Below, piece after piece: positions 37,467 to 63,630 of a stretch of 64,000 nt of DNA. The position numbers were made by a program, and so were the translations under genes. The DNA lies in the NCBI GenBank assembly GCA_026636295.1, contig CP089460.1:248001-312000 (forward strand), in the 5' to 3' direction. The DNA comes from Medakamo hakoo. Lineage: Eukaryota > Chlorophyta > Trebouxiophyceae > Coccomyxaceae. Each line of letters begins with the position of its first letter. Within the stretch, counting starts at the first letter, position 1. The notes beneath the pieces are model-generated. The model was given only the letters and a program-made list of their open reading frames with translations, searched no databases and was not told the origin of the DNA.

Positions 37467-40400
37467 TCACCCCACCGCCCGGCGCTTGTTCCCGCCACTT
37501 TTCTTCCCCTTTTTCTTCCCGTCCCGCTTGTACATGGTCGGCGATGGCGTGGAAATGGCGGCAGCAGCGGCTTTTTTAGCGGACGGATCCGAGCGGACGG
37601 ACACGACGGCGCCGCTGGTCAGCGCACCACCCGCGGCTGCGGCGAGCGTTGTCGCCGACGGCCCCACCGCAAATTTGGACAGGCCGTCTTTCCCACCTAA
37701 AGCGGCCGCCACCTCAGCTGCCGCGACGCGGGCGGCTTCGCTGGCTGCCGCGTCCAGTTCCGCGTCCACGCCCGCGTCGGTCGGGTCGGGCGTGGGCAGG
37801 GCGGCGGCCGCGCGCGCGGCGGCCGCGCCTGGGAGCGCCGGCGCCAAATCCCCGCCCGCCGCCGCTTCGGCCCTGGCCGCCAAATGCGCGTGCAGCCGGC
37901 GGATGGCTTTGTTGAACAGGGCCATGGCCTGGTGGGAGGGCAGCGTCAGGGCCGCCGCCGCGTCGGGCGGGGACAGGCGTTGCAGGCCGACACAGACGAG
38001 CAGGGCGGCCTGCGCCGGGGAGAGGGTGACGGGCAGGCGGCCGCCCACCCAGGCGGCGGCGAGGGCGGGGATGAGGTCTCCCACCAGGGCAGCGTCGGCG
38101 AGCGCGGACGCGTACGCGCCCAGGCGGGCCAGGTCGTGCGGGGTGAGCGGGGTCCCGTCCGCGTGGACGACGGGCGGGTTGGTCGCGTCCGCGCCTTGCG
38201 CGGCCGCGCGCACGGCCTCGCCCGCTTCGGCGTCCGAGTAAGCCAGGCGCGGGGAGAGGAGGCCGAGGGCCAGGCCAGGGGCCAGGCCACGGGCGGGGCC
38301 GCCGAGCAGGGCGGCGGCCCGGCGGCGGAAGTCGGTCACAAAGGGCGTCGTCCACCCGGGCGGCGGCGGGTCGGGGCCTGTGCCCCCGCCGTCGAGCTCG
38401 CGCAGCACAATCACTGTGTGCTCGCCCGTCAGGTCGCTGGCCGTCTGCCGCAGGTACACAGGCACGTAGCCGGCCTTGCGCCAGAAGCCGTACAGGGCGG
38501 GCGTGGCGCCGAACGCGGCGGCCAGGTAGTGGACGGGCTCGGGCGGGCGGTCGGGCAGGGCGGTCAGGAGCGGGGGCAGGCCGCTCCGCGCGCGCAGCCG
38601 CTCCGAGTGCAGGGCGCCGCCCGCCGGGGCGGGCGCGGACGCCGCCCCCGCCTTTGGCTGCCCCGCGCCACCGCCGCGTCCGCCGCCACCGTCGCCTGCC
38701 TCGTCATCAGAAGACGACGCCAGGTCACCGCCGGCCAGGCCGCCCTCGTAGTACGACGCGAGCAGGGACAGCGCGCGCGACCCGTACCCAGCCCGCCCCA
38801 GCTCCGGGTGCACCGCCAGGCGCACCACCCGGGCGGCGGACAGGCGCGCAAAGCCCGCGTCCTGGAACTGTTGGCCGACAGTCCAGGGGACGAGGTCGCC
38901 CGCGGGCGCGTGGCCGTGGGCCAACGCCGCTTTGGCGGCGCCGGACGCGACGGCGCCCTCGAGCGCGACCTGGACGACCGCCAGCACGTCCGGCAGGCCG
39001 CCGCCCCGGCCCGCGTGTTCGGGGCGGGCCGGGCCGAGCAGCACAAACAGGCGGTGGGCGGGCGCGTCGGCCAGCATGACCAGGTCGTCCGGCGTGTTGC
39101 GGTAGTGGGACGCGGTCAGCAGGGCGACGGCCGCCTGGAGAAAGGCTTCCGCGGCCGCGTGCCCGGAAAACAGCGTGTCGCGTTCGACCGCGTACAGCGA
39201 GCACGCGGCCGGCGGGGGGAGGACGGCCGGCGGTGGGGGCAGGTGCGCGGCTGCGTCCAGGCACAGGACAGAGTGCAGCCAGGCCTCGACGCCGTCGCCG
39301 CGGGCGTACCGGATGGGGTCGGACAGCGTGACCTCCCTGAACGTGCGCGGGTGGGTGGTGGCGGCCGCGGGCGCGGGCGGGCCGTCGCCCGGCGCGGCCG
39401 GCCCGCCGGACGCGGCCTCGGACCGGAGCTGGGCCAGCAGCTTCAGGGACAGGGACCGGCCCGTGCCCTCGTACCCGTTCACCGTCGAGCACAGGAAGAC
39501 GAGGTACGGGCCGAGCAGGCGGCGGACGAGCGGGAGGGGGATGGCCGCGGCCTCGTCTATGACGACCAGCTCCGCGCTGCCCGCCACGCGGTCCGCGTGG
39601 TGGGGCAGGACGAACTGCACCGTCTGGCGGTGGGAACGGTAGACGTTGAGCCGGACGACCGCGCCCGCCAGGTCGGGCGACGTGGCTTCCACCAGGTCGT
39701 AGTCCGCGTGTTCGGCGAACCCGAGCGCGGCCAGGCCGCGCGTCGCGAAATCGAACAGCGTCCGCACGTTGTCGGGCGAGGGCGCGGTGACAAAGATGTT
39801 GGAGTAGCCCAACGCCAGGGCTCCGGCGATGCCCAGGCCCAGGGCAGCGGACTTGCCGCGGCCGCGGGCGGCGGTCAGGGCGACGGTGCCGCGGAGGGCC
39901 TTGTCCGACGCAGCGTCGAGGAACGTGACGACCGCGCGTGCCTGGTCGAGCGTCTTGGCTTGGGCGACGAGGTCGCCCGCCGGTTTGGCGTCGGCCAAGG
40001 AGGAGACAAGGTCGGCGAGCTCGGCCGCGGCTGGGTCGGGTGGGGGCGGGGAGTCGGCCAAGCGGGCGCCGCCGGCCGCGGCGGCGGCGGCCGACGAGGT
40101 CGGCAGCACATTCAACTCGTCGTCGACGATTAAGACCGCCGGCGACGCGGCCAAGGCCAGGACCAGGCGTTCATTGAAGCGCGGGACGAGCTCGGCGCAC
40201 GCCGACGCCGCGCCCGCACCGCGCAGGCGGGCGTGGACGTCCATTGTCAGGGAGTAGAGCCGGGTCAGGGAGTCCATCGCGGACAGGAGCAGCACGACCA
40301 GGCCGCCGCCCTCGACCGTTTCGATCGTCCGGGCCAGCAGCGACGGCGTCAGCGCTTCAAAGTCTTGCAGCACCGCCATGCCAAACGTGTTGCCCAGCAC

Positions 40401-41178
40401 CCGGTGCGAGTCGGCGTAGTGGCAGTACCGGATGTTGGTGGCCGCGACGAAGAGGGCGAAGGGGTCCTCCGCGTCCGCGTCCAGCAACCCGCGCGCGGCG
40501 AGCTTCTTCAGCTGGCGCATGCGCTTTTTCTTGTGGGAGGACAGGTATAGCTCCTTTTTGTAGCACCACAGGACGGACGGGCGGGCCTTGACGACGGTCT
40601 TCGAGAGCAGGTAGTGCAGGTTGACGACCTAGGGGGACGGATGGGTCGGGGGGGGGGGGGGGCGAGTTGGTGAGTGTGTGTGCGAGAGGGGACGGGGCGG
40701 GCGGGCGTGAGGGACGCGGGGACAGGCACGGAGGTCGGGCTCGAGTGATTGGGTCACCAATACGGCTCCTTTCCTTGAGGCGTGGCTAGCGCCGCCGTCT
40801 CTCCCTCCCCCGCCACGCGAGACAGAATGAGAGAGAGAGAGAGGTTGATGGAGGAACGCAGGCACGGCAGGCGGCTAGCCGCTAGCCGTCGCCGTCGGCG
40901 CGAACAAAAATAAACGCCCCGCACCAGCGGCCCAAAACTCACCTGGTCCCGCGCTTTATCGCCCACGATGACAAACAGGGACCGCGTGTTGGTGGCGACG
41001 CCATGCTCGACCAGGGCGCGGACCTGTGTTGGTTTGGTGTGGGGCGTGGCAGAGCGCGTCGTCAGTTTTTTTTTCGTGTCGGCGGCCCGGCTGCATGCGG
41101 TGGCACCACGGCGCCACGCCCTCACCCGCCCGTCTCCCGTCTGCACCAACGCACCCGTGGATCCACTTTCTTCCGCAT
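37467..41178 (-). CDS. NAT10: RNA cytidine acetyltransferase NAT10/Kre33
   Basis: This enzyme makes N4-acetylcytidine in 18S rRNA and some tRNAs, in the nucleolus, using ATP and acetyl-CoA. Exons are 41178-41155 (only eight codons, MRKKVDPR), 41023-40943 and 40628-37467 (1,088 residues, close to the human 1,025 and yeast 1,056). The joined N terminus reads SLFVIVGDKARDQVVNLHYL and KARPSVLWCYKKELYLSSHK, exactly the family pattern. Then come the ATP-binding loop ARGRGKSAALGLG, a helicase-like domain (TAPSPDNVRTLFDF, VVIDEAAAIPLPLV), the GNAT domain (VVRLAVHPELGRAGYGSRAL), and a basic Lys/Arg tail for nucleolar targeting. Introns are placed on exact family alignment. Divergent from ADNT1 with 230 bp between starts. 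Confidence 0.97.
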
Positions 41179-48115: not shown

Positions 48116-49100
48116 TCACTTCTTGCCCGCGGCGGCCGCGCTGGAGGCGGCTCCGCCGCCGCGCCCGCCGCCGGCCGCGGCGCTCGAGGCCGCGGCCCCG
48201 CCGCCGCCAAAGTTGTTGAAGCCGCCGCCCCACCAGGGCCCAAACCACTGGAGTGCCTGAAAAAAAGGTTGGGGGTGGTCAGGGGGCGGGGGCGGGGGTG
48301 GATGCGTGTTGTGAGTGGCCAGGGGATGGAACGGGTTTCCTCTCCCCTCTCGGTCCCTCTTCCCTCGCCCTCTCACCTGCCGGGCGTGGGCGTCCTGGAT
48401 GTCCAGCATTTTACGGCCGGCGGCGGCCGCCGAGCTCGCGGAACCCCCGCCGCCGCCGTACGGGTAGCCGTAGCCCCACGGGCCGTACCCGCCGCCTCCA
48501 GAGGCGGCCGACGACGCGGCCGCCCCGCCGCCAAAGCCCCCGCCCCAGAACGGGCCGAAGCCCCAGCCTCCCAGGAATTGCAGGGGGACGCGGCCGTGGT
48601 TTTCAATCGGGGCTGTCGTGTGTGTGTGTGTGTGTGAGGGTGGGTGGGTGGGTGGGTTTGGGTGAGGGGTGGGACGGGGCGGACAGAGAGAGGGCGGAGG
48701 CACACACAAAACTCGCGCAGCGCGCGACCCGGCCCCGGCACACACAACTCGCGGCGCGCGCGCGCGCGGGTTGTAGGACAGGCGCACTCGACCGACCGCG
48801 CGCGCGCGCGACCGCCCGCCTCCTCCCACGCCACCCGCGGACAGAGAGAGAACGGAGGCACACACAAAGCGCGCGGAGCGCGCGACCGACCCCGGCGCAC
48901 ACAACTCGGCGCCAGGGCACACACACAACCCGCGCGCGCGCGGGTTGTGCGCGGGTTGTAAGACAGGCGCGCTCAACCCCAAACCGCGCGCGCCCGCCAG
49001 CCCGCCTCCTCCCACCCTACCCGCCGCCCACACCTTCCGGCTCGGCAGCGGCCGACAGGCCAACCAGGGCGGCGAGCAGGACGATGGCGAAGGAACGCAT
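48116..49100 (-). CDS. Secreted Gly/Ala/Ser-rich modular protein (paralog B)
   Basis: No known family. Exons are 49100-49034, 48612-48377 and 48256-48116 (147 residues). Exon 1 encodes a signal peptide (MRSFAIVLLAALVGLSAA). Exons 2 and 3 each encode one copy of a module: an aromatic Gly-rich part (FGPFWGGGFGG; FGPWWGGGFNNF), the core GGGAAASSAA, a Gly/Tyr loop, then ASSAAAAG followed by Arg/Lys. Exon 2 ends RKMLDIQDAHARQ. Intron phases are 1 and 0. There is no cysteine and little charge, so the mature protein should be low in regular fold and prone to assembly, like wall or silk-type proteins; that role is inference. It is paralogous to the gene at 60.3 kb. Intron 1 contains long tandem repeats. 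Confidence 0.82.
48681..49020. repeat. Two tandem ~160-180 bp repeats in intron 1 of secreted paralog B
   Basis: The unit starts GGACAGAGAGAG at 48681 and again at 48839. Both copies contain GGAGGCACACACAAA, a CGCGCGACC block, alternating CG tracts, GGTTGTA(G/A)GACAGGCGC and CGCCTCCTCCCAC. Copies differ by small insertions. They lie within the intron. Confidence 0.9.
48925..48948. repeat. 24-bp perfect palindrome with CG core
   Basis: A self-complementary sequence, ACAACC on the left, a 12-base CG alternation, and GGTTGT on the right. It lies in copy 2 of the intron repeat. Such tracts can adopt cruciform or Z-form. Confidence 0.85.
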
Positions 49101-49313
49101 GGTGTGTGTGTGGCTGTTGGTTTTGTTTTTGGTGAGGAGGGGGAGAAAGGGGGGGGGTGGAGGAGAAAAGAGGTGTGTGCTGTGAGAGCACAAAAAAAAA
49201 TAAAAAACTCTCTCTCATCCACATCCTTCTCACACATCCCAGGTGCAGGCGCACGCCCCGCCACGCCGCCCACGGACACGGCCGCCCTCTCCTAAATCTC
49301 CGACACGGACTAG
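49101..49313. other. Promoter of secreted paralog B and 3' end of next minus gene
   Basis: 213 bp with an A9TA6 run at about 49191-49206. It should carry the promoter of the secreted-protein gene. No defined motif. Confidence 0.35.
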
Positions 49314-49976
49314 TCACCCCCTCGCCCGCCCATTGGTCGCGCCGCCTCCACCCCTGCCCCCACCCCCACCATTCGCGCGCGGCCCATCCTTCTTCCCCGC
49401 CGCCCGGGCGGCGAGCAACCTGTCCTCCGCGCCTTCCACCAACGCTTCTGTTGTGGCCACGCTCGCCGCAGACAAGACGTGCCAGAGCGAGTGGACAAAC
49501 GGCGTGGACGGGCGCAGGTCCTCCAGGAAAAAACACGCGACACCGACGGCCGAGGTCGCCAGGTGGATCCGTTCCTTCGCCCGCACGGCCGGGTCCGTCT
49601 TGGCGCGCGCACGAAACTCGGACTCCATGGCGAGTAAGTGAGCGCCGGTGACGACCAACGGGTGGACGGGCGTGGCAGCCAGGCTGACGGCCGTGATTTT
49701 GCGCGCGTCGGCGGAGGGAAACAGGACGCGGCCCAGGGCGGTCGCGGCCGCCGCAATCGCCCAGTAATCCGCCTTGCGGCCCAGGGGCTTGGCCGGGCCG
49801 TCGAGGGCGTGGAACAGCGTCGCGCCCGCTCCTGCGCCGGCAACGCACGCCGCGTACAGGCGCCGCTCCGGCGTCCGCGCCCGGGCATAGTGGCGGGCGG
49901 CCAGCGCAAAGTACGGGGCCGTCGTCACCAGGTTGGCAATGCGTTCGGCCCGGTTGTGGTCGCACACGCCTGGACC
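49314..49976 (-). CDS. Multi-pass membrane protein with CREST-like Asp/His motifs; 5' exon(s) unresolved
   Basis: The last exon, 221 codons, is clear; the start of the gene is not. It encodes about six hydrophobic helices (LVTTAPYFALAARHY, AACVAGAGAGATLFHAL, DYWAIAAAATALGRVLF, VVTGAHLLAM, SAVGVACFFLEDL, FVHSLWHVLSAASVATT). The pattern of an Asp in KADYWA, His in FHALDG and paired His in HSLWH recalls the CREST superfamily (alkaline ceramidases, PAQR, PER1), metal-dependent membrane hydrolases, but the match is partial. The acceptor is a consensus CACAG before GGTCCAGG at 49976. Upstream (to 50560) lie a CA repeat, an A10 run and several possible exon 1 candidates; I could not choose among them. 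RimP follows upstream on the same strand. Confidence 0.7.
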   Translation of the reverse strand, partial: GPGVCDHNRAERIANLVTTAPYFALAARHYARARTPERRLYAACVAGAGAGATLFHALDGPAKPLGRKADYWAIAAAATALGRVLFPSADARKITAVSLAATPVHPLVVTGAHLLAMESEFRARAKTDPAVRAKERIHLATSAVGVACFFLEDLRPSTPFVHSLWHVLSAASVATTEALVEGAEDRLLAARAAGKKDGPRANGGGGGRGGGGATNGRARG

Positions 49977-49988
49977 CTGTGTTTGTGC

Positions 49989-50036
<48 letters not shown>

Positions 50037-50560
50037 AGGACAGCGTCGTGAGGTTGGAGCAGGCCTCGCGCGCGGTGCGTTTTTTTTTTGCATCCTCTCC
50101 AGTCGCCGCGAGGTTGGTCTGGGGCCTGGTTCGAGGCATTGGCCTCCCTCCGCGCCCTCGCTCCCCACACAGGCCGCCGTCGGCTCCGCCCTCCACACCC
50201 ACGCAACAGTGTGCGTGTCGTCGCTGTACCCACGCACCCGTGGACGAGGACGAGCGACGTGTTTCAGCGCCGACGCGGCCGTCCGCGCGCCGGCGTCCAG
50301 CCGCGCACGAAGGCCGCCCTTGCCGCCGTCATCCACACGAGTCAAGCCAGTTTGCAAGGTCACGGCTCCAGCAGGCCGGGGCTTGATGTCCACTGCCCAC
50401 GGCCAGCTGAAGCGGCCGGACGTGGAGGGCTGGGAAGGCGGCGGCGCCTCGTTTTTTGTGCGCGGTGCACCCATCTGTTTGTCGACGAGCGTCTGCGCTG
50501 TGGAGCCGAGGCCACGACCACCACCTCTCCACTGACCCACCTCCCACCTTTTTCTTCGTT
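49977..50560 (-). other. 5' region of the multi-pass membrane protein gene
   Basis: 584 bp that must contain the intron, missing first coding exon(s) and promoter of this gene, and the 3' end of RimP. It contains a GT/CA dinucleotide tract (49988-50034) and a T10 run (50079-50088, plus strand). Open frames exist on the minus strand but none shows a conserved protein. Confidence 0.5.
49988..50034. repeat. (GT)n/(CA)n microsatellite in intron
   Basis: More than 20 nearly perfect GT units immediately upstream, on the gene strand, of the acceptor at 49976-49977. It may double as part of the pyrimidine/CA-rich acceptor tract. Confidence 0.95.
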
Positions 50561-51421
50561 TCACACGTCCAGGTGCAGGCGCACGCCCGCCACGTCGCGC
50601 GCTTCCACCACCGCTCGTGCCTCCCGCTGCGCTTTCGTCAACCGCCCCGTCGGACCGCGGTTCCCCCTCACATCCGCGGGCGCCCACACGATTTTGCCGC
50701 CGCCCTCCTCCACGCCGACCAGCCGAAACAGGAACGGTGCGGCCGGCGGGCGCGGGGGCGCGCCCTTTGGCGGCCCGCAGCCAGCCGCCAAAGCCGCGGC
50801 TGCTGCGGTCTCAGACAGCCTCACCGCCATGGGCAGCGACGCGAAGCGTTCCAAGTCGCCGGGCACGCGCAACTCGCGCTCGGCGCCGGGCGAAGAGACC
50901 TCGACCTCCACCCGGTCGGCCGCGTCCACGCCCGCCGCTTCTTCAAAGGCCGGGCCAAAGGCTGCGGCAAACGCCGCGACTTCGTCCAAGCTGGGTGAGC
51001 CGTACTCATCGCTTGGCTTGTCCAGGCGAATGGCCAGCCGCCCCGCCCGCGCGTCGGCGGACAGCGACCACAGCGCGAGGTCGGCCAGCGCTGGGTCCGT
51101 CGACAGAATTTTCTGGGCGGCGGCCACCGCCGCGTCACCCCAGGCCACGCCGCCCGTGTGGAGTCCGACACCCGTCGTGTCGGACTCTGGAAGCTCCAAA
51201 GCGTCGTCGTCGTCGAGGTCTTGCTCGGCGGGCTCGGCGGGCTGTCGTGCCGCGGCCGTGCGAAACCGGTCTGCGGCGGTGGTGGTGGTGGCGGTGGTGG
51301 CAAACGGTGCGGCGGCGGCCAGCGCCGGCGGCCGTCGCGACGCGACCAGCGGCACAGTCCGCGCCTTCACCCTCCACAACCTCCCACCAGTCACACAGCA
51401 GCGTGCGGCCCGGGCCAGCAT
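50561..51421 (-). CDS. rimP: Ribosome maturation factor RimP-like, organelle-targeted
   Basis: RimP helps assemble the 30S subunit; in algae and plants it acts in plastids. A single exon of 286 residues. The first ~60 residues are a Thr/Ala/Arg presequence (MLARAARCCVTGGRLW). An acidic linker follows, then the RimP N-terminal domain: RLAIRLDKPSDEYGSPSLDE, AAFGPAFEEA and VEVSSPGAERELRVPGDLERF, the family signature. The C-terminal SH3-like part includes the GRLTKAQ region and ends VRLHLDV. A Pro/Ala insert separates the two domains. The gene is head-to-head with PSRP1/HPF, another plastid ribosome factor, 156 bp away. Confidence 0.9.
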   Translation of the reverse strand: MLARAARCCVTGGRLWRVKARTVPLVASRRPPALAAAAPFATTATTTTAADRFRTAAARQPAEPAEQDLDDDDALELPESDTTGVGLHTGGVAWGDAAVAAAQKILSTDPALADLALWSLSADARAGRLAIRLDKPSDEYGSPSLDEVAAFAAAFGPAFEEAAGVDAADRVEVEVSSPGAERELRVPGDLERFASLPMAVRLSETAAAAALAAGCGPPKGAPPRPPAAPFLFRLVGVEEGGGKIVWAPADVRGNRGPTGRLTKAQREARAVVEARDVAGVRLHLDV

Positions 51422-51577
51422 GGCGGGGACGGGGGGTAAGTGGTGCTGTCGCGTGTCGGAAAAAAAAAAACAGACGTCTGGCTCGAGGGGCATGCGTTCT
51501 CGTCTGCCCCTCCTCACTTTTTCGTTTTGTGCTTTCCCATCCCGCGCCCCTCCTCCGAAACCGCCGACCACCCCAAA
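51422..51577. promoter_or_regulatory. 156-bp divergent promoter, RimP / PSRP1
   Basis: Lies between the start codons of two plastid ribosome factors. It holds an A10 run at about 51461-51470. No motif was recognised, but the short distance makes shared regulation likely. Confidence 0.5.
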
Positions 51578-53115
51578 ATGCTCCTCGCCCGGTCCGCGAG
51601 CGTCGGCCGGCCTGCCGCCCCGGTCGTCCGCCAGCCCCGCGTCGCGGCGGCGCCGTTCATCGCTCCTCTCCTGCCTGCGCAGCCGCGTTGCTCCTCCATC
51701 GTCGCGGCCGCCGCGCCACAGGGCGCGTCCACCGTCCGCGTCAACGTCCAGGGCCGGCACTTGGAGGTGACGGACGCGCTGAAAGCGTACGCGGTGAGTC
51801 GTTGGGGTCGTGCGCGGCGTTTTGGCGACCGAAAAAGAACGCCGCGTTTTCTTTTGAGGGTGACGCTCCTGACAAACCGCTGCCGTGCGCCGCGTTCCTC
51901 TGCGGGGAAAGGTCTCCCAGCCTGTCCCCGTGTGCGCACAACACTCTGCCCCCCGCAAAGGGGCCGGAAAAACAGGCGTGTCGGAAGGGTGGAAGGACGC
52001 TCGCCGGCGGGGTCGTTTTTCCTCCGCAACGCATGGAAAGAAAAAAGGCGCGGTATCGCCCTCATCTTCGCGCGCAAGCCCTGCCGCCACCTCCATTGGC
52101 CGCCCACCCTGGTTTGCTGGACGGGCGAGGGTATGAGGCCGCGACCGAGCTGGAGGAGTGGTATCGAAGCTCCGGCCTGCGCCTGCCGTTGCGCGTCTTT
52201 TCGTGCGCGGGCGAGCTAGCAAAAAAAAAAGAGCGCCCCACCCTCCGCGTCCGGTCGCCATGGCGGCCCCCTCTCACCCCCCCCCCTTCTCGAAACCACG
52301 GCCCACACACACTGCAGGAGGAAAAAGTGTCGCACGCCCTGCACAACTTTGAGGGCGCCGTCAAGTCCGCCGACGTGAAGCTGTCCGTGGCGGGCGGCGA
52401 CGCCGGCAAGGGCGCCAAAGCCCAGAAGACGGAGGTGACGATTTACACGCTGCGGCACGGCGTGGTGCGTTGTTTTGTTTTTTTCTTTTTTGGGGTGTGT
52501 GTGTGTTTGCCTGTGTTTTTGTGAGGCGCAGCAGCGCACTAGTGGACGTCGCTGCGCTGGTATGCGCCTCTGTCCGCCCGCCCGCCCTCCCCGCCGCTGT
52601 CGGGCCCCACCCCCCCTCACGCGCACACCTGCCCACCCATCCCCCCGGAACCAAACCCGAAAAAACTCAAGGTCCGCGTCGAGGACGTGGAAGCCTCGGC
52701 CTACGCGTCCATCGACGTCGTGTGCGACAAGGTCCGCGGCAAGCTGCGCCGCCTGAAGGAAAAGGCCATGCAGCGCGGGCGGTGGCCGGGCTCGGCCCGC
52801 CCGCGCGGCGCCAAGCCCCTGGCGGACGAGCTGGCGGACGAGGGCGGCGTCACGTCGTCGTCCGAAGACGAGGGCGAGTACTGGGATGGCGGCGCCAAGG
52901 CGGCGTCCGCGCCCGCCGACCCGGCCATGGCCGTCATCCGCGAGAAAAGCTTCGTGCTGACCCGCATGACCGCCGCCGACGCGGCCGAAGCGGCCGACCT
53001 GCTGGGCCACTCCTTCTACGTGTACCAGGACGCCGACTCCGGCGGCGTCCGCGTCGTGTACAAGCGGTCCGCGGCGGGGTATGGCGTCATCATCCCCACC
53101 GTCGCGGACAAGTGA
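51578..53115 (+). CDS. PSRP1: Plastid ribosome hibernation factor, long HPF (PSRP1)
   Basis: PSRP1 is the plastid long-form hibernation promoting factor; it binds the 30S decoding region and silences ribosomes under stress or darkness. Exons are 51578-51793, 52318-52464 and 52672-53115 (268 residues). The first ~45 residues form a transit peptide (VAAAPFIAPLLPAQPRCSS). The S30AE domain runs STVRVNVQGRHLEVTDALKA, then HALHNFEGAVKSADVKLS, then EASAYASIDVVCDKVRGKL, with an RRLKEKAM exit. An acidic Ser-rich linker leads to the C-terminal dimerisation domain, IREKSFVLTRMTAADAAEA and LLGHSFYVYQDADSG, ending in a VVYKRSAAGYGVI strand. Intron 1 is over 500 bp, the longest in the window. Divergent from RimP. 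Confidence 0.96.
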
Positions 53116-53494
53116 GGAGCGTGCGCCCGCGGCCGCTGCCTGGCGGGCTGGTGCCCTGGCCATGTTTGGGAGAGAGAGAGAGTGTGGGCGAGGGTGGAGT
53201 GAGGGCTGGAATGGGATCGTCCAGGGAAGTTTTGCACGCGCGGGCACTGTTTTTTTTTCCATTCACGCCTGGGATTGGAGAGAGGAAGGCAAAGCAGGGG
53301 ACGCGGCGCGGACACCATCAGCAAAGTGAGAGAGGTTGCAAAAGCGGGCGTGGTCGTGCGTGTGAGAAAAAGATTTGGGTTCCGGGTTGCCCCATCCACT
53401 CTCCCTCGCACTCGCATCATTTTTTTGACGCATGCGGCGCGACAGTTGAGCGCCGCGCCGCGCGCCCCTGACAACCCTCCCCTCCCCTCCTCCA
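53116..53494. other. Intergenic region between PSRP1 and MRS2
   Basis: 379 bp with the 3' end of PSRP1 and the promoter of MRS2. It contains a GA repeat (53171-53181) and a T10 run (53250-53259). No gene was recognised. Confidence 0.45.
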
Positions 53495-55425
53495 ATGGTG
53501 CTACCATCGCGCCGCCGTGACCGCTCGCGCGGCGACCTGCTACCGACGACATCGCTCGTGTCGGCGTGGGCGCACGCGACCGGCAGTTCCGTGCCGCACA
53601 ACAGCAGTCGAGGCAACAACAACAACGGCCGGGCCAAGACGGCGGCCGCGGACTTCTTTGATTTTAAAGGTGCTGCCGATTTCGTGCCGACCGGTAAGCG
53701 GCAATGGCTGCGGTATGATGCGCGCGGGCGCATGACGGTCATTCCGGTGCGTGGAATTCTCATGTGTTGGGTTTGGGGTGCATGGAGAGGTTGGGGGGGA
53801 CAACGAGCGGGCCCACACCCACCCCGGGCCCACACCAACCCAACCCACCTCACCCCCAGGCCGACAAGCGCCCCATCATCGAAGAACTGCGCCTGCCCTT
53901 TCGCGACGCCGTCATGATCAACCCGCTCGTCCCCACGCCCTTCCCGCCGGCCGTCCTGATCCGCGACGCCGCGCTCGTCGTCAACCTGGGCGCCCTGCGC
54001 GCCGTCGTCGGGGCCGACCGGCTCTTCCTCCTGTCTGTCCCCGACCCGGCCTCCGACCATTGGGCGTTCCCAGACCCGGCGGGCGGCTTCGAGCGCGAGC
54101 TAGCGGCCCGGCTGGCCGGTGCCGCCGAACCCGTGTCCACCGCGCCGAGCGGGGTCGGGGGTGGTGGCGGCGCGACCGCCGCGCCGCCGCCGGCGCTCAA
54201 CCCGCCCTCCCTCGCGCCCTCCGCGTCAGGCGCCGACCTGCTCGCCGCCGCGGCCGCCCTCGCCTCCCCACCCCCACCGCCCGGCGCCCTGCCTTACGAA
54301 CTCCGGGCCTTGGAAGCCGCCCTCCAAGCCGCGCTGGGCGACCTGTCCACCGAAGCGGCCGGCGTGGCGGAACGCACGCTGCCGGCGTTGGAAGCGTTGG
54401 CGGAGGGCGCGGACGTGACGCGCCGCGGCCTGGAGAGCGTGCGGTCGTCCAAGCTCTTGATCAAACGCCTGGAAGCCCGGATCCTGGGCCTCAAGCGGGA
54501 GCTGGAGGAGCTGATCAACGACGACGACGACATGCGCGACATGTTCCTGGGCAGGCGGGCGGCGGCCGCGGCGGCGGTGGCGGAGGCGGTCGCGGCCGAG
54601 ACGGCGAGCGGGACAGAGGGCGAGGACGACGCCACGGCGTCGACGACGGCCACGGGCGACGACGAGCCGGGGCAGCCGTCCCCCCGCCCGGCCGCCGACC
54701 GGTCCCTGTCCCCGCGCCCGGGCCTGCGCCGCCGGTCCGTCGGGCCGCCCGCCCTCGCCGGGCCTTTGGAACGGCTGGCCTCGGCGGGCTGGGCGCCCGT
54801 CCCCCTCGAACCCGGCGCGCTGGCGGGCCCCGAGGCGGGCCCGCAGCCCGTCCGCGCGGCGAGCCACCACGACGTCGCGGCGTGCGAGAGCATGCTGGAG
54901 AGCTATTTCATGCAGGCCGACTTCCTGCTGTCCCGCCTGTTTGTGCTCAAGGTATGAGCGTTGTTGCACGCGCTCGTTGTGTGTGAGAGCCCCCGCGCGT
55001 CCGTCGCGGGACTGCGCCTCACCGTGCGGCCGCCGCCCGTTGGACTCGTGGAACGCTCGCGGCACAATCTGGGCTCCATCCACACACACACACACTCCTC
55101 CCCCTCATCGCACCTACAACACTCCCCCCAGGAACGCATCGACGACACGGAGGACTTGATTGGCATTGAACTGGATTCCCGGCGCAACGACCTCGTCGCC
55201 CTGCAGCTCCTCGTCACCCTGCTGACGTGTGCGCTGGCGGTCGTGTCCACCGTCGGCGCGCTCCTGGGCATGAACCTGGCCCCCCTGCCCATCGAAACGA
55301 CCGTCGCGCCCTTTTGGTGGATCACGGGCGGCAGCATTGCGGGCGGCGTCACCCTGTTTTTGCTGACGCTGGCGTACGCGCGGAGCCGGCGCATTCTGTG
55401 GATCCCCAAAGTGCCGCGGGAGTAG
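53495..55425 (+). CDS. MRS2: MRS2/MGT-type magnesium channel (CorA superfamily)
   Basis: MRS2 proteins form pentameric magnesium channels in mitochondria, plastids or vacuoles. Exons are 53495-53746, 53860-54951 and 55132-55425 (545 residues). Evidence: RQWLRYDARGRMTVIP at the N-terminal domain start; the first-domain core ADKRPIIEELRLPFRDAVMI; LPYELRALEAALQAALGDL; the long helix with RLEARILGLKRELEELINDD and an Asp run before MRDMFL; YFMQADFLLSRLFVLKERID leading to the first membrane helix; and the pore motif GMN in TVGALLGMNLAP, with a second helix GGVTLFLLTLAYA. An Ala/Gly/Pro insert near residues 160-205 and a charged loop near 365-420 are extra. The GMN triad is intact, so it should conduct magnesium. 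Confidence 0.95.
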
Positions 55426-55671
55426 GCGGCGGCCCAGGCCCCGGGCGGCGGGGTGTGTGTGGGCGTGTGTAGTCTTGTCCCGCGTGCGGAAGGGCACCGA
55501 AACAAAACGCGATTGAAAAGGCTCACCCACAGAGTAACACGCCACCAACCACCAACTGTAGGAGCGCAGGGGGGTGCAGGCAGGGGAAGGGGAGCGGGCG
55601 GGTCCGTTTCCGCGCCACACCCGCCCCTCACACCCGCCCGGACGCCCCCGCAACTCCCTCCACAACCACCC
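55426..55671. other. Convergent 3' region, MRS2 / RPL26
   Basis: 246 bp between stop codons; no clear signal. Confidence 0.4.
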
Positions 55672-57083
55672 TCACTCCACGGTCTCCATGGCAGCCACCT
55701 CCGCCTCGGTCAGCTTGCCCTTGCCGGCGCCGCCCTTGCCGCCCTTGCGCCCCAGGATCGCGGTCCGGTCCTTGTCCATCTTCAGCTTGGTGATGACGCA
55801 CTTGGACGGGCACACGCCGACGGGCGCCTGCGCGCCGTTGACCTTTTCCCGGGTCAGGCCCGCGATGTGGATGACCCACTTGCGGCGGTAGACGGTCGTG
55901 ACCTTGCCCTCCCGGCCCTGTGTGTGCGCGTGGGTGGTGGTGGTTGGATGGGGGACGAGGGGCGGGAGGGTGAGTGCGGGCGGGCGGGCGGCGCGACGAG
56001 GGGCGGGCGGGTGAGTGCGGGCGGGCGGGCGGCGCGACGAGGGGCAGGCGGGTGAGTGCGTGCGGGCGGGCGGCGCGCAGCGAGGAAACAGGAGCGACCG
56101 GCGACACGAGACGCCCACATCATCGCCGTACCTTGTACGTGCCGCGCACGACCTGGACCTCGTCGTCCTTGCGGACGGGGATGGCGCGGGCCTGGCAGGT
56201 GGTGAGGGGGATGGGGGAGGGAACGAGTGAGACGACGGCACCGATCGGTGGGTAGCACGCGAGGATGCGTGCAGGGAGCCGGGCGCACGGGTCCATCGTC
56301 CGCCACGCCCGTCTATACGCCGTCACGGCCCGGCCGTGAAGTCTCTGGCGGAGCGCGGGCGGGTGTGCGAGGGAGCGGGCGGCCCCGAAGCGACACGGCC
56401 CTCGATTCGGCCGGCTCTGCCGCACGCGTCGGGCGACAGCAGCCAACGGCAGCGGAAATCCACGCCGCGGCCACGCGCGCCTACACCCTCAAGGCCCCGG
56501 CCTTGACGCGGCGCGCAACACAAGCGCGGTCAGGCACGCCCGCCTCGCCGAGGCAACGCGGCCACACACGACCAACAAATCGACGCACCGAGTGTTTGGC
56601 CCGCAGCTCGGCGGACAGCGGGGCCGACATCAGCTTGCGGCGCGCGTCCGAGGGCGCCGTGAAGTGCGCCTGGTGTGTTTGATATGATGGGGAAGGGCGT
56701 GTGGCGCTGTGCGTGAGCGACGGGTCGGGCGGAGGCAAGTAGAGAGGTGCGCGGCGGCGGCGCGCAAGTTTGCCGGCAAAGCCGTCTACGGGCTGCCTGA
56801 ACCCAGACGAGGGTTCTGGCGCGGTCACAGACAGCCACAGGCATCGGAGCACCGCCCGAGAAAGAATCGGACGAAGGCTGTGGGGCTGATAAGGGTGCCC
56901 GACGGCCGCGACGGCGGCCTTTTACCTGCCGATCCGGGCCGGCGGCGCGGCGGCCAGCGTCGGGAGGAGACGCCGCGCCGGAGGCGACCCGCTCTGTCCT
57001 CCTCCACAAAAAAGAACACAAAAACAACGGACCTTGCGCGACTTGCGCCGGGAAGAAGAGACGGCGGTGGAGTACTTCGCCAT
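55672..57083 (-). CDS. RPL26: Cytosolic 60S ribosomal protein L26 (uL24)
   Basis: L26/uL24 sits by the peptide exit tunnel of the large subunit. Exons are 57083-57033, 56669-56589, 56191-56132 and 55917-55672 (145 residues). The joined protein reads [80 protein letters not shown], then [20 protein letters not shown] and a basic Gly/Lys tail. It matches the family throughout. Three introns, one over 390 bp, interrupt a short coding sequence. Divergent from EMC5, with 121 bp between starts. The third intron contains a 41-bp minisatellite. Confidence 0.97.
55954..56076. repeat. Three tandem 41-bp units in RPL26 intron 3
   Basis: Unit starts GACGAGGGGCGGG and ends GGGCGGGCGGCGC, with GGTGAGTGCG in the middle. 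Copies are almost identical. On the gene strand the unit is a CACTCACCCGCC-rich pyrimidine tract. Confidence 0.9.
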
Positions 57084-57204
57084 GGTTTGTTCGTTGGACA
57101 GGGGCCGAACAAAAAAAAGTCGAGTGAGGCAGGCGAGTGGCACGCTCGCGCTCATTCATCAGAGCCTCCCCCCGGTTGTTGTTCCTCTCGCGCCAAAAAG
57201 CACG
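57084..57204. promoter_or_regulatory. 121-bp divergent promoter, RPL26 / EMC5
   Basis: The gap between two start codons must hold both transcription starts. It includes an A8 run at about 57111-57118. No other motif was recognised. Confidence 0.45.
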
Positions 57205-58171
57205 ATGGCCGGCGCTCCCTCCACCGCCCGCGGTGGCGCGGTCGCCGCTGTCGCGGGCGCCCTGCTCTTCCTGGCGGCGGGGTGGGCGGTGCTGCGGCGT
57301 GCGTTCCTTTGTTAGAGAGGGGCGAGCACGAGCGCGCCGAAACACCGCCCCTCTTCCCATCATCCCTGTCCCCTCCTCCTCCCGCCTGGGCCCTGACGCA
57401 CGCCCTCCACCCCTCCCCCCCCCCCCCCCCCCCCCCCCCCCCTCACTCAACAGACCGGTCGGCGCTCAAGCTGGCTCACGAGGACTGGGACGGCCCGCCC
57501 GCCCTGGTCCGGGCCGCCGTCGCAGCGGGTGCCGCGCTGGCGGCGGCGGGCGCGGCCGCGGTCGCGGGGAGCTTGCGGCCCATCAGTCCGGCGGCCAATC
57601 AAAAGTGAGTTTTTTTGTGGTGGGTTATGAGGCATGGGCTTCGCAGAGGCGTGGGTGGGAGGTGGGGAGACTGTGCGCGACCTGTTCGTTCCCGGCGGTG
57701 GCGTGGCGGGGTGGGTCGCAGCCCGCGCCCCCCCTGGTCGCGCGTGCTCAGGCGCGAGCAAGCCCAGCGCGCGCGTGTGCCAGGCGCGCCTTCCGCGCCG
57801 CGCCCTCCACCACGGCGCCCACGACTGCGTCTGAAGCGTGGGGCGCGGGTCCGCGCCGCTCGACCCCTCCACAAAAGACTCACGCACACACGCGCCCCCG
57901 ACCCACACACACACACACCACACCCAGCCCCCTCGCCGGCCGCCCCTTCCGCCCCGACTTCCTCACCCTCCACCACCGGGGCAACCGCCCGGGCTCCGGC
58001 CTGGCCGCCGCCGGCATCCCGCCCATCGGGCCCATCCCGCCCGGGCTGGTCGCGTTGGAAGCCCGGTGGCGGCGGGGGGAGGCGGGAGGCAGCGCGCGGG
58101 TGGGCGGCGGTGGCGCGAGGCCGGCCGAGTCGGACGCGGCGACGACAACAACGATCACGGAGCTCGAGTGA
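57205..58171 (+). CDS. EMC5: ER membrane complex subunit 5 (EMC5/MMGT1)
   Basis: EMC5 is a two-helix subunit of the ER membrane protein insertase EMC. Exons are 57205-57298, 57454-57604 and 57928-58171 (162 residues). The joined protein shows helix 1 (GGAVAAVAGALLFLAAGWAV), the loop LRHRSALKLAHEDWDGPP, helix 2 (LVRAAVAAGAALAAAGAAAV), then RPISPAANQNPLAGRPFRPD and FLTLHHRG, which line up with the YRS..KL, PI and FNHRG landmarks of EMC5. The C-terminal tail of about 65 residues is Gly/Ala/Arg-rich and ends in a Thr run. A C27 tract stands just before the acceptor of intron 1. Assignment is by motif order and topology rather than strong identity. Confidence 0.8.
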
Positions 58172-58184
58172 GGGCCCTCACTCG
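58163..58184 (+). terminator. Hairpin-forming inverted repeat at the EMC5 stop codon
   Basis: CTCGAGTGAGG and CCTCACTCGAG are exact reverse complements separated by no more than two bases, and the TGA stop lies in the first arm. It could form a stable stem in the mRNA at the end of the coding sequence. A function in 3'-end formation is only possible. Confidence 0.5.
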
Positions 58185-58354
58185 AGCGGGAGGGGGCGGC
58201 GCGTGCGCGCTGGGTTTTGTAGAGAGACACACACACTCAAAGCCAGGTCACACAGGGAAAAAAGTAAGGACTGGGAAACAAAAAAAAAACGGGGGACCGC
58301 ACGGAGGACAAGACACACACCCACGCCCCTCCCCGCCGCCCTCCGACAGCGCGC
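58172..58354. other. Convergent 3' region, EMC5 / small plastid protein
   Basis: 183 bp between stops; an inverted repeat (GAGCTCGAGTGAGGGC... GCCCTCACTCGAG type) spans the EMC5 stop at about 58161-58185. No TGTAA was found. Confidence 0.4.
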
Positions 58355-58955
58355 TCAGAACTTGAACAGCAGCGTGCCGTCCGGTAAGACCTCCGCTTTG
58401 CCCGCTTTACCGCCGGCGGGCTTGGCCGGGGCGGCGGGCTTGGCCGGGGCGGCGGGCTTGGCCGGCGGGGCGGCGGCGCCGCCGGAGGACTTGGCGCGCC
58501 ACGCCGAGATCCAGGCCCGGGCTTCGGCCGCGTTGGACGCGGTCGCGGACGCGCTGGTTGTGTGTTTGGGTTGTGGGTGGGTGGGGAGGGGAGGGGTGTG
58601 GGTGCGAGAGGTTGGACCGCGGCTGGCGCCGCGCGTGCTTGTTTGGAGCGCGCGTGCACGACAGGCGGGGATGCCGACGGGAGTAAACACATTGTGATGG
58701 GTGGACAGGTCCACAAGCGCAACCCTGTGCGAAACGGGCACGCGACAGGACGTGGTTGTGGCGCGCCAGGGGCGCGCGCGTGGCACAACCCAGTCGGGGG
58801 ACGGCGAGCGCGCGCGCTCGGGCCGAACGGGCGCTGCCGGCGGGCTTATTTCTTCCCCGCCGCACTCAGGCCGCAGTGTCGCACGCCCTCCTCACTCACC
58901 GGACGGTGACACGACGAGACCGGACCACGGGCGCACGAGCAGAAAGGAAGGCCAT
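58355..58955 (-). CDS. Small plastid-targeted protein, unknown
   Basis: No named family. Exons are 58955-58900 and 58553-58355 (84 residues). The head MAFLSARAPVVRSRRVTVRA is a short transit peptide with a likely cleavage site at VRA. The mature protein of about 65 residues has an amphipathic segment EARAWISAWRAK, a repeat of (PA)APAK three times, and ends GKAEVLPDGTLLFKF. The WI..W helix and the closing VLPDGTLLFKF strand look conserved rather than random. The intron breaks a codon inside the presequence, as is common for plastid genes. Divergent from the MTR3 gene, with 188 bp between starts. It might be a photosystem or NDH accessory subunit, but nothing in the sequence proves that. Confidence 0.7.
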
Positions 58956-59143
58956 GGTTGGAAAGGAGTGGCGGGGCGCGGGAAAGTGAGAGGTTTGTGG
59001 TCGTCGCTGTGAGTTTCGGCTAGCGAGTTTTTGGCTTGCATTCGCCTTCATAACAGAGCGACAATTAGCGCGGTCCAGCGTACCCTCATCTCCCGGGGCC
59101 GGCCCACATCCCGCACGACCCCTCAGCGGCCATTCCATCTACC
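58956..59143. promoter_or_regulatory. Divergent region, small plastid protein / MTR3
   Basis: 188 bp between start codons; no clear motif. Confidence 0.4.
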
Positions 59144-60191
59144 ATGGCCACCCGCGTCGACGGCGTCGCGTCCGTCCCGCTGCCACGGCGGCTGGACGAC
59201 GCCGCGCCTGCAAAACCCGCCCTCATCGACGGGTCCGGCCGTCGTGCCGACGGCCGTGGCCCTGAAGAGTTCAGGCGGACATGTGAGTGTGCCAGCGGCG
59301 ATGAGGGGTGGGGTGGGGAGGAGGCGGGTGTGGGCAGGAGGGCGCGCCGAGAAAACCGCGGGCCGCCGGCCGCATGCCTCTCTGCTCTCACCAACCTGCA
59401 CCCACCCACCAAAAAAAAAAACAGTCATGCAAGCCGGCGTCTCTTCCCAGGCATCCGCGTCTGGCTCGGCCTACGTCGAACTGGGCCGCACCAAAGTCAT
59501 GGCGGCCGTGCACGGGCCGCGGGATGGAGGCGGCGGAGGTCCGCCGTCCTCGAACCCGCTGTCCGGCCGGCTGGCCGTCGAGTTCCGGGCGTCGCCCTGG
59601 GTGGGCGGCGGCGGCGTGTCGTCCACGGGCGGGGGGCGAGGCGGTGAGGCCGGGCGCGAGGCCGCCGCCTTGATTGCGGCGGCTTTGGAGCCGGCCATCT
59701 TGTTTAACGCGTTCCCAAAGGTGAGATGATGGGGTGGGGTGGAGTTGAGAGACGTTGAGAGACCGCACCGCTTTTCCTGACGCACAACAACCCCACGCCT
59801 CTCCCGACCAAAACCTCAGTCCGTCGTCTCCCTCGCCATCCACGTCCTCGACTCGGACGGCGGCGATTTGGCCGCGTCCATCACCGCCGCCAGCTTGGCC
59901 TTGGCCGACGCGGGCGTGCCGTGCAAGGACGTGGTGGCGGCGGCGGGCGTGGTGAAGGCCGGGGACGCGTTGTTGCTGGACCCGAGCGCGGGCGAGGGTG
60001 GCCGGGCGGGGGTGTCGTCCCTGACCCTGGCCGTCATGCCGGCAGCGGACAGGGTGACGCAGGCCGTGTTTGCGGGCAGTTGGGGGCCTGACGCGGCGGA
60101 GGGCGGGGTCGGGCTGGCGAGCGCGGGCTGCGCGGGCGTGGCGGCCGCGATGAGGGCGGCGCTGGTCGACCGGGCGGCGGGTGGTGTGTAG
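59144..60191 (+). CDS. MTR3: Exosome RNase-PH-like subunit MTR3/EXOSC6
   Basis: A ring subunit of the RNA exosome that degrades and trims RNA in nucleus and cytosol. Exons are 59144-59282, 59425-59720 and 59820-60191 (268 residues). The joined protein reads RRADGRGPEEFRRTFMQAGV, ASGSAYVELGRTKVMAAVHG, GRLAVEFRASPW, LEPAILFNAFPKSVVSLAIH, and ASITAASLALADAGVPCKDV, all typical for RNase PH rings. LLLDP near the end and the GSAYxExGxTKV start suit MTR3 (EXOSC6) slightly better than RRP41 or RRP46. A Gly/Ser insert of about 15 residues lies near residue 85-110. An A13 tract stands directly before the acceptor of intron 1, in place of a pyrimidine tract. Confidence 0.87.
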
Positions 60192-60246
60192 AGAGACCAG
60201 GTGTGTGTTTTAGTTCGGCGCAAGGCCGTCGTTTATTTTCCTCAGA

Positions 60247-60251
60247 TTACA
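60247..60251 (-). terminator. Probable polyadenylation signal TGTAA of secreted paralog C
   Basis: TTACA on the plus strand reads TGTAA on the gene strand, 95 bp after the stop of the minus-strand gene, beside a T run. Confidence 0.5.
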
Positions 60252-60345
60252 TTTTTTTGGGCCGGACCACCCAGATCCCACACACGCGCGCGCGGCCAGA
60301 GGAAATCAGATTCAAAAATTCGCAAACAAAAAACGGAGGGCGCCC

Positions 60346-61103
60346 TCACAACAACATTTTGCGCCCAGAGACCGCGACATTGGAGGTGGTCGCGCCGCCG
60401 CCCGCGGACGACCCGGCCGCGGCGCCCGGCACAGCCACGGAGCTGGAGACGGCGCCGGGCGACGCGGCGCTGGACGCGGCGGCGCCGCCGCCCACGTTCC
60501 CGCCCCAGCCGTTGTTGAAGAGGAGGAAGGGCAGAATGCCGCCCAGGCCGCCAAACTGGGGAGTTGGAAAAGAAAATGAGACAGGTGAGTACCCCCCCGC
60601 CGCCTGCCCGCCCGCCCCGCCTCCCTCCCCTCAAACGCTCACCTGCGCCAGCTGGCGCGTTATGTGCTCGTCAATTTCGGCCAGGCGGCGGCCCGCGGCC
60701 ACGGACGACGTCACCGACCCGGGCGACGCGGCGGAGCTCGCGGCCGCGCCGCCACCAAAGCCTTGGTTGAACCCGCCAAACAGCCAGGGAGCAAAAAGTC
60801 CGCCGAAAGGCAGGAACTGAGTGAGCTCACGCGTGGGGTGGGCGGGCTCTGCGGGTGGGGCGAGGGGTGGGGAGGGATGAATGGGATGGACGTGCGGGAG
60901 GGAAAAATACGCAAGCGCGCGCGCGCGCGCGCACGCGTTTTGTGTGCGCGCGGCGCGGCCGCGCTGCCGCCTGCCCGCACGCGCCCGCCGCCCGGCGCTC
61001 CACCCCGCCTCCCGCCTCCCGACCACGCACCAGCGGCGACCGTGCAGGCCAGCATGACGACCAGGGCGGCGGAAGCGATGATGACAGCGGAGGCGCGGGC
61101 CAT
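60346..61103 (-). CDS. Secreted Gly/Ala/Ser-rich modular protein (paralog C)
   Basis: Not a known family. Exons are 61103-61031, 60848-60643 and 60555-60346 (162 residues). Exon 1 gives a signal peptide (ASAVIIASAALVVMLACTVA). Exons 2 and 3 each carry a module: a hydrophobic aromatic strand (FLPFGGLFAPWLFGGFNQ; FGGLGGILPFLLFNNGWGG), the core GGGAAASSAASPG, a V/SSVA turn, and a closing segment GRRLAEIDEHITRQL or SGRKMLL. Introns have phases 1 and 0, the same as paralog B at 48.1 kb, with the second intron right after an RQ-like end in both. There is one Cys in the signal peptide and none in the mature part. Likely cell surface or matrix; function unknown. The GH1 beta-glucosidase gene lies just upstream on the same strand (228 bp). 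Confidence 0.83.
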
Positions 61104-61331: not shown

Positions 61332-63630
61332 TCACGGCGTCTTGGGCGACGGCGGCTCGGAGTCGGCCCCACCGTTCGGCTTAAACTTGTCCGGCAGGGT
61401 CGCGCCGCCGCCGCCGCCCCACAGGTTGGACAGGAATTTGAAGGAGTCCTTCGGGTACCGCTTCTGGCCGTCCTTGTAGTCGACGTACGTGATGCCGAAG
61501 CGCTTGGCAAAGCCGTCCGCCCCTGGTTGGGTGGGTGTGGTGGGGAAAAAGGGAAGGGTGCGTGAGGGCGAGGCAGTTCCGTTTTTGTTTCGCGCGGGCG
61601 CGCGCAACCTTCACCCCCCCTCCATCCATCCATCCATCCCATCCCATCCATCCACCTCCCACGCACATTCAAAGTTGTCCAGCAGCGACCACGCAAAGTA
61701 CGTCTTCAGCGGCACGCCGTCCTCACGCACAGCGTCGGACGCAGCCTTCAAGTACGAATCGTAGAAGTCCACGCGGAACTGGTCGTGCAGCACGGCCGGG
61801 AAGGGCAGCGAGTCTTCCTGCGGCACGGACACGCCGTTCTCCGTCACGGCCATCTCGCCCGGCTTGTACCGGTTGTTCAGGTACGCCAACGCCTTGCGGA
61901 AGCCCCAGGGCGTGACGATGAGCCAGGACGAGTCCGCGACGGGGCCCAGGGGCGCGCCCTTGGCGTCCTGCTCCAGGGTCTCGTAGTTGGCCAGGCCCAG
62001 GCCTTCCGGGTTGTTGGCGCCGGGGGACGCCTTGACGTAGCGCGTGGTGTAGGCCTGGGATGATGGGGGGAGCAGGGGTGGGGGACGCGGAGGGGTGTGT
62101 GTGTGTCAGTGTGCGCGTGAGGGTGTGTGACGCTGGTGTTTGCCGTGCGCGCCGGTGTTTTGTAGGCGCCGGTGTTTGCCGCGCGCGCCGTCCCCCCGCC
62201 CGGCTCGTCCTGCTTGTCGCGCAGGGCGAGAAGGGCCGCCGCACGCTCGACTAGCCCCCATGCCAAGCCACGCACACAAAAAAAACAAACGCACATTGAA
62301 CGAAAACAGGTCCATGCTGCCCTTGAGCGCCGCCGCCAGTTCCGGCGTGATCTGGCCCAGGCCGGGCGGCGCGTGCTTCAGCACCGAGTCCGGGTACTTG
62401 CCCAGGTACAGCGGGTCCGCGAACAGGCCGTAGTGGTAGTCCCGGTGGATCTGGGCGGCCTCCACGTCGGCGGGCGAGTCGGTCAGGGGCTCGCCCCACT
62501 CGCCGTCCAGGTTCATGGACAGCTTGCCGCCCGGGACGGACGCCCGGAACGCCTTGGCGGCCTTGGCGTGGCCCTCCAGCACGTGCTGCACGCACTGCCA
62601 CGTCTGTTCCACGGACTTGATCCCCGGCGCGTGCACGCCCACGCCGTAGCCCAGCGTGCAGAAGGTGCGCGGCTCGTTGAACGTCGACCAGTTTTTGACC
62701 TTGCCCCCAAACTCCTTGAAGACCAGGGCCGCGTAGCGCGCGTAGTCGTCCACGACCGCGGGGGACGCCCACCCGCCGTACTTGTCCTGGAGCGACTGGG
62801 GCAGGTCCCAGTGGTAGGTCGTCACCCAGGGCTCGATGCCCGCGGCCAGGAGGGCGTCGATGACCCGGTGGTAGAAGGCCAGGCCTTCCGCCGACGGCTC
62901 GCCCGTCGCGGACGGGATGATGCGCGGCCAGGACAGGGACATGCGGAACTTCTTGACGCCCATGGCGGTCATGAGCTCGATGTCCTCCGGGTACTTGTTG
63001 TAAAAGTCGTCGCCGACGGCGGCGGCCTGGGGTTTTGAGGGGGGCGGGGATGATTTTTTTTTTTTTTGGGTGAGACCGGGGAGGTCCCTCTCCCCCTCTC
63101 CCATGTTTCCCGTCTCTCCTCTCCCCGTCCCCCAGCGGCTGGGGCACGACGGCGGTCGGCCGCCCCACCCCGCCGCGTCCCCGGCCGCCCCCCCCCCGGC
63201 AACAACGCACATCATTGGAAAACGTGTCCCACACGGACGGGGACCGGCCGCCCTCGCGGGCGGCGCCCTCGATCTGGTAAGCGGCCGTCGCGACGCCCCA
63301 GTCAAAGGGCGGGCGGGCCGACGCGGCGGCGGCGGTCAGCGAACGGCGGGCGGCGGGCGCGGCCAGCGGGCGCGTGGCTGGTGGTTTTGTTTGGGTGGGT
63401 GGGTGGGTGGTCGCGGGGCGTGAGCGCGCGTCGCGTCTCAGGCGGGACCAGGCCGTGCGAGGCGAGGGTCGTGCCCACGGTTCGGCGCGCGCGCCCGCCC
63501 CCCGCCAGTTTCCCCCGCCTGCCTGTTTCCGCGAAAATAGTTTTTTTCCTGACGCACCTCCCGTGAACACAGGCGCCGCCAGCAACATGACCGCCAGGAA
63601 GACGCGCAGCGAAGTCCGGGACGGCGCCAT
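61332..63630 (-). CDS. Secreted glycoside hydrolase family 1 beta-glucosidase
   Basis: GH1 enzymes split beta-glucosides with retention, using two glutamates. Exons are 63630-63558, 63377-63211, 63026-62295, 62054-61667 and 61522-61332 (516 residues). A signal peptide starts the protein ([19 protein letters not shown]). Motifs are [26 protein letters not shown], the acid/base glutamate in STFNEPRTF, the nucleophile in AVTENGVS, and [17 protein letters not shown] at the end, joined across the last intron. Family members normally carry about ten more residues (a Gly-rich GKxxxGDTGD loop) between VWDTFS and DDFYxxY; here the joint gives [11 protein letters not shown], so the loop is short or a tiny exon was missed. 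All four introns begin GTGCGT. Probably works on wall or secreted glucosides. Confidence 0.93.

Follow-up and report, generated by a model that had tools for sequence, protein, structure and literature searches.

Two genes on the minus strand of the 64-kb window (the whole stretch of DNA that we analyzed), here called A and B, encode small proteins that each consist of a signal-peptide-like first exon followed by two related modules with a strictly conserved core. We tentatively favor the explanation, to which we give a little less than even weight, that A and B are old paralogs producing small, secreted, mostly disordered silk-like proteins of the wall or surface, whose modules are probably cut apart where a glycine is followed by two basic residues.

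In both genes the introns (four of four) run from GT to AG, the first in phase 1 and the second in phase 0, and the exons join in frame (Table 1). These in-frame models, together with the relatedness of the modules, bear out a preliminary description of this DNA, which had proposed that the two genes are paralogs with an identical architecture of signal-peptide exon, phase-1 intron, module, phase-0 intron, and module. When exon 1 was scored with a von Heijne weight matrix (a slash marks the cut), gene A gave 11.4 at GLSAA/AEPEA, its best site, which lies one residue before EP, and 7.1 at LSAAA/EPEAP, and gene B gave its best score, 7.9, at CTVAA/EPAHP, which is at EP itself. Among six starts compared, the context ACCATG was common to gene A, gene B, an L26-like ribosomal protein gene, and two others, and a neighboring GH1 gene differed. 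The motif TGTAA, the poly(A) signal of chlorophytes, lies 379 nt past the stop of gene A and 94 nt past that of gene B.

Table 1. Predicted structure of genes A and B, with positions counted from the first nucleotide of the window
Feature	Position	Strand	Remark or basis
Gene A	49100-48116	minus	predicted 3 exons, spliced translation of 147 aa
Gene A exon 1, signal peptide	49034..49100	minus	spliced translation and weight-matrix score
Gene A intron 1	48613..49033	minus	421 nt, phase 1, internal repeats
Gene A exon 2, module A2 and linker DIQDAHARQ	48377..48612	minus	
G-R-K at end of module A2	48410..48418	minus	hand-counted coordinates
Gene A intron 2	48257..48376	minus	120 nt, phase 0, without in-frame stop
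Gene A exon 3, module A3 and stop	48116..48256	minus	
C-terminal G-K-K immediately 5' of gene A stop	48119..48127	minus	hand-counted coordinates
Gene B	61103-60346	minus	predicted 3 exons, spliced translation of 162 aa
Gene B exon 1, signal peptide	61031..61103	minus	spliced translation and weight-matrix score
Gene B intron 1	60849..61030	minus	182 nt, phase 1
Gene B exon 2, module B2 and amphipathic linker AEIDEHITRQLAQ	60643..60848	minus	
G-R-R at end of module B2	60685..60693	minus	hand-counted coordinates
Gene B intron 2	60556..60642	minus	87 nt, phase 0, in-frame stop inside
Gene B exon 3, module B3, GRKMLL, and stop	60346..60555	minus	
G-R-K at end of module B3, followed by MLL and stop	60358..60366	minus	hand-counted coordinates

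The introns of gene A have some features of their own. Since its second intron contains no in-frame stop, retention of that intron would also yield an open protein, and a second CAG nine bases inside exon 3 is a possible alternative acceptor (region 48248-48376); either intron retention or use of the second CAG would alter the linker between the modules. The first intron (48613-49033) contains blocks of 30, 40, and 51 nt that recur 158 to 186 nt apart with 88-90% identity, and it therefore seems to have grown by imperfect duplication. A weak module-like stretch in the translation of this intron (domain E 13) was disregarded.

All four modules follow the same plan: an aromatic and glycine-containing head, the string GGGAAASSAA, a spacer that varies in length, a tail of Ala and Ser, and a Gly-basic-basic end. 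Their similarity goes beyond composition: five of the six module pairs scored above all 2000 composition shuffles (z 8.1-12.4), with the A3-B3 pair being weaker (z 4.3, 1 of 2000 shuffles equally good). The core GGGAAASSAA had already been described as present in every module, and we found it identical in all four, where at 10 aa it is the longest string that they have in common; the longest common strings reached by composition shuffles (2000) and by first-order Markov samples (5000) had 4 and 6 residues, respectively. Any two cores compared at the nucleotide level show 2 to 6 changes in their 10 third codon positions, and the two serines of the core are encoded as TCG TCG, TCG AGC, AGC TCC, and TCC AGC, with switches between the TCN and AGY classes. 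Because of these silent changes and class switches, the core is conserved as protein and is not the result of repeat slippage, and we conclude that selection acts on the protein sequence of the core, which is also better conserved than the aromatic head. The two-module family is thus confirmed within the window. A module search of six-frame stretches found no fifth module in the 64 kb (the best match outside both genes had an E value of 0.21, which we took as chance), and among six-frame stretches of at least 20 aa the pattern GGG(A/S)AAS did not occur beyond the four modules; the shorter AAASSA was present once elsewhere in the window, in the plus-strand stretch 29399-31867.

The preliminary description regarded exon duplication as the simplest origin of the paired modules. 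Tandem duplication of the whole of exon 2 is rejected, since this exon is phase 1-0 in both genes and a tandem copy would break the frame; we infer that duplication of only a part, with an intron either newly arisen or retained at the joint, is the better fit. In both genes a linker is present after module 1 and absent after module 2, which points to a two-module plan older than the separation of A and B. The two linkers, GRKMLDIQDAHARQALQ and GRRLAEIDEHITRQLAQ, are identical at 6 of 17 positions without gaps, and in this hand alignment the phase-0 intron is offset by three codons between the genes (RQ/ALQ in A, RQLAQ/ in B); an alignment with MAFFT placed a three-residue gap in the linkers, which makes the intron positions coincide. 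Little weight attaches to the phase-1 intron near the signal-peptide cleavage site, since an excess of phase-1 introns is general at such sites (PMC1626468) and the unrelated GH1 neighbor also appears to have one.

Each module closes with a glycine and two basic residues, namely, GRK in A2, GKK in A3, GRR in B2, and GRK in B3, and neither protein has any other pair of basic residues. A GR(K/R) element had been listed before, although the point that it amounts to a glycine plus a basic pair in four of four modules was overlooked. When the mature parts were shuffled, none of 100,000 shuffles had at least two Gly-dibasics in each protein, and 0.086% had at least four dibasics in total. The test was post hoc, the pattern having been noticed first and tested afterwards, and the four sites are not independent, as the modules are homologous; we therefore take the result as support and not as proof. 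In the six-frame readings of the GC-rich window, G(K/R)(K/R) is common (823 matches).

The composition of the two proteins is silk-like. Their mature parts contain 31% (A) and 20% (B) glycine. The SilkSlider rule for silk-like proteins calls for a secreted protein with at least 25% glycine in 80 aa, or 35% under a 28-aa rule (PMC4944945). Both proteins have a predicted signal peptide (best scores 11.4 for A and 7.9 for B with the weight matrix), and glycine reaches 35% in A and exactly 25% in B over 80 aa, and 50% and 35.7%, respectively, over 28 aa; composition alone is no proof of a material role, the rule was made on animal proteins, and B stands only at its threshold. Of the earlier suggestion of a self-assembling surface or wall protein, the composition thus holds up under the SilkSlider rule, and assembly and location are parts of the mechanism proposed below. 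The proteins had also been called uncharged and Cys-free. The former is incorrect, with 12 of 128 residues charged in A and 11 of 138 in B, mostly at the N-terminus, at the Gly-basic-basic sites, and in the linker after module 1; the latter is true of the mature parts of both proteins, and the signal peptide of gene B has one Cys.

AlphaFold2 models of the two exon-2 modules, made from a four-row alignment, had mean pLDDT values of 59.6 and 52.4, with no confident fold for heads and cores. A predicted helix recurred over the Ala/Ser tail, the Gly-basic-basic residues, and the linker (47-68 in B2, 60-77 in A2); it was better supported in B2, with a block pLDDT of 78-82 over its main part, than in A2, with 62-69, and the B2 model had an additional short, weak helix at 20-24. 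The helical moment of the linker was matched by 0.7% of shuffles for B2 and by 5.0% for A2. From an input of four sequences, these models show little beyond the absence of an obvious fold outside the predicted helix.

No known family had been recognized for the module, and this agrees with our searches, in which none was matched in Pfam, NCBIfam, PHROGs, PDB, viral contigs, or prokaryote genomes. For the two proteins, Pfam and PHROGs each gave 0 families, and the single NCBIfam row, for A, was at chance level (E 0.69; 8.4 bits, with the cut-off at 322.7). By sequence, PDB gave nothing for A and two chance-level capsid rows for B (E 0.54 and 0.58). Pattern searches gave 72, 62, and 600 matches in viral contigs and 508 and 593 in prokaryote genomes, with no relative confirmed by tblastn in either. 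As these collections are viral, bacterial, and archaeal, absence from them says little about algae. The excerpted literature on green-algal Gly-rich or silk-like wall proteins contained nothing visibly matching genes A and B, and that on the string AAASSAA contained nothing related to them.

The window has an average GC content of about 72% and includes other spliced genes. A Pfam search of 20 of the 63 coding-like segments recognized, among others, a CDPK-like kinase with EF hands, a histone acetylase of p300/CBP type, an S30AE ribosomal factor, DUF4336, DUF7912, and GH1, and several of these are typically found in plants and algae. The acetylase (two TAZ, PHD, KAT11, and ZZ) occupies one open stretch of 1530 codons at 19814-24403, and a NAT10-like gene at 37500-40628 has an open stretch of 1043 codons, so that large single exons stand beside short-exon genes. 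The best-matching chains of the L26-like protein, whose gene lies at about 55675-57083 (spliced by eye), are presumably those of plant ribosomes. Like the domains typical of plants and algae, this match supports a host that is probably a green alga; the GH1 gene described below does not in itself point in that direction. Within an apparent intron of this gene, at 55954-56077, are three copies of a 41-bp unit (96% match), and a run of about 33 C (93% match) is found at 57410-57442, shortly upstream of an apparent plus-strand splice acceptor. Directly upstream of gene B and on the same strand is a GH1 beta-glucosidase gene (61332-63630, bounds by eye), the signal-peptide exon of which apparently ends in a phase-1 intron that is followed by ARRSL (by eye). 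Among solved structures, the GH1 piece came closest to 8in1 (a beta-glucosidase of 994 aa) and Klotho chains, with plant enzymes ranking lower; the number 8in1 appears with a paper on a sea-hare enzyme (PMC10619976).

Secretion, assembly, cleavage, and location belong to the mechanism that we propose for the A and B proteins. Cleavage of the signal peptide would take place one residue before the conserved EP or at EP itself, the aromatic heads would act as stickers, and the Ala/Ser stretches would pack against each other, leading to assembly on the wall. A subtilisin/kexin-like protease would probably use the Gly-basic-basic ends to cut the modules apart and trim them, much as fungal Rep1 gives rise to wall-surface peptides.

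Alternatively, A and B could be structural wall proteins that are not processed, the modules staying joined and the Gly-basic-basic residues forming a cap or charge patch that ends the Ala/Ser tail and starts the linker helix. We consider this doubtful, while recognizing that the inner sites lie within the predicted amphipathic helix in both models, which would make cleavage there less easy, and that RK, the pair at two of the four module ends (two GRK, one GRR, one GKK), is a poor cleavage site, being left out of the known convertase motifs (PMC6313938); fungal KEX2 cuts at KR or RR and, with lower frequency, at KK (PMC6339444). However, A3 and B3 keep Gly-basic-basic without any helix after it, which argues that these residues have a role of their own. 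It is a good deal less likely that the proteins are prepropeptides for secreted signals, in which a convertase would cleave behind the basic pair, a carboxypeptidase would remove that pair, and PAM would amidate the exposed glycine, so that each precursor would give two related amidated peptides. A signal peptide with G(K/R)(K/R), the combination used in a Chlamydomonas screen, is found in both proteins, with such a site in all four modules, and gene A has a C-terminal Gly(K/R)n as well (PMC6919629, PMC6313938). PAM or PHM sequences are also reported from several green algae, namely, Chlamydomonas, Gonium, Volvox, Ostreococcus, Coccomyxa, and Chlorella, some of them without cilia (PMC6529398). 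Yet the products would be long, at 52 to 77 aa, the best-conserved part of the module is internal and does not adjoin the supposed amide, and such sites have a high base rate among the proteins that algae secrete: according to the excerpted reports, of 771 soluble secreted proteins in Chlamydomonas, 331 contain G(K/R)(K/R) and 24 end in Gly(K/R)n, and three amidated products were detected by mass spectrometry (PMC6919629, PMC6313938).

The aromatic and glycine-containing heads (QFLPFGGLFAPWLFGGF and similar) might also belong to Gly-rich antimicrobial or membrane-active peptides that act on the membranes of competitors. Hydrophobic heads of this kind are found in all four modules, next to a signal peptide and possible processing sites, but charges are few, the mature parts have no Cys, and the GGGAAASSAA core is better conserved than the head that would do the work, so that we think this very unlikely. 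Finally, in a window of about 72% GC with long open frames in all six frames, A and B could be open frames in simple sequence and no functional family at all. We reject this as scarcely credible, given the conservation of the modules at the protein level with silent changes, the two parallel spliced architectures, and the confinement of GGG(A/S)AAS to the four modules among six-frame stretches of at least 20 aa.

In our judgment, lineage-specific Gly-rich secreted proteins are common, and what could set A and B apart is the Gly-basic-basic end of every module. If the modules stay uncut, these would be lineage-specific silk-like surface proteins of an ordinary kind. If they are cut there, the genes would represent a multi-copy, amidation-ready precursor of the green lineage, of which we found no report in the literature as excerpted, and they would connect the building of the wall with the machinery that processes peptides. 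An improbable further step is that the green lineage has a family of precursors with repeated, amidation-ready modules encoded by exons, so that two related polypeptides, amidated or trimmed, come from a single transcript. Such a family would parallel, in the plant lineage, the multi-copy prepropeptides of animals, and might supply self-assembling wall peptides like Rep1.

Several known systems offer a comparison. Hydroxyproline-rich glycoproteins and classical AGPs are defined by Pro-rich SPP or PPP runs, or by more than 50% PAST with AP/SP repeats. A and B contain no SPP or PPP, their PAST content is 34% and 39%, and they have 1 and 5 AP/SP dipeptides, respectively. Class I GRPs, the Gly-rich wall proteins of plants, have a signal peptide and a Gly-rich part with GGX runs, as do A and B; however, glycine at 31% and 20% is below the class I level, and A and B differ in their large Ala/Ser share and modular repeats. 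The SLSPs, the class delimited by SilkSlider (PMC4944945), resemble A and B in having a signal peptide, at least 25% glycine over 80 aa, repeats, no confident fold, and no known domain, although this class was set on animals by composition and not by homology, A and B have only two modules, and their paired basic ends are outside its definition. Among the amidated prepropeptides of Chlamydomonas (Cre03.g204500 and others; PMC6919629) are secreted proteins with G(K/R)(K/R) or a C-terminal Gly-basic, one of them at the very C-terminus as in gene A; unlike these, the A and B precursors carry two related modules each, and the excerpted report states that multi-copy precursors of the same peptide are absent from C. 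reinhardtii (PMC6919629). In fungi, Rep1 is a repeat precursor that is cleaved into amyloid-like fibril peptides affecting the properties of the hyphal wall (PMC6339444, PMC9769878). A rule for such KEX2-processed proteins (KEPs) asks for at least three repeats with KR, RR, or KK between them (PMC6339444), whereas A and B have two modules each, separated by RR in B and by RK in A. A and B thus depart from Rep1 of Ustilago and its like in having two repeats versus three or more, RK, KK, and RR versus KR, and a host probably of the green lineage, and the likeness consists of a signal peptide, internal repeats, and basic pairs at the repeat ends.
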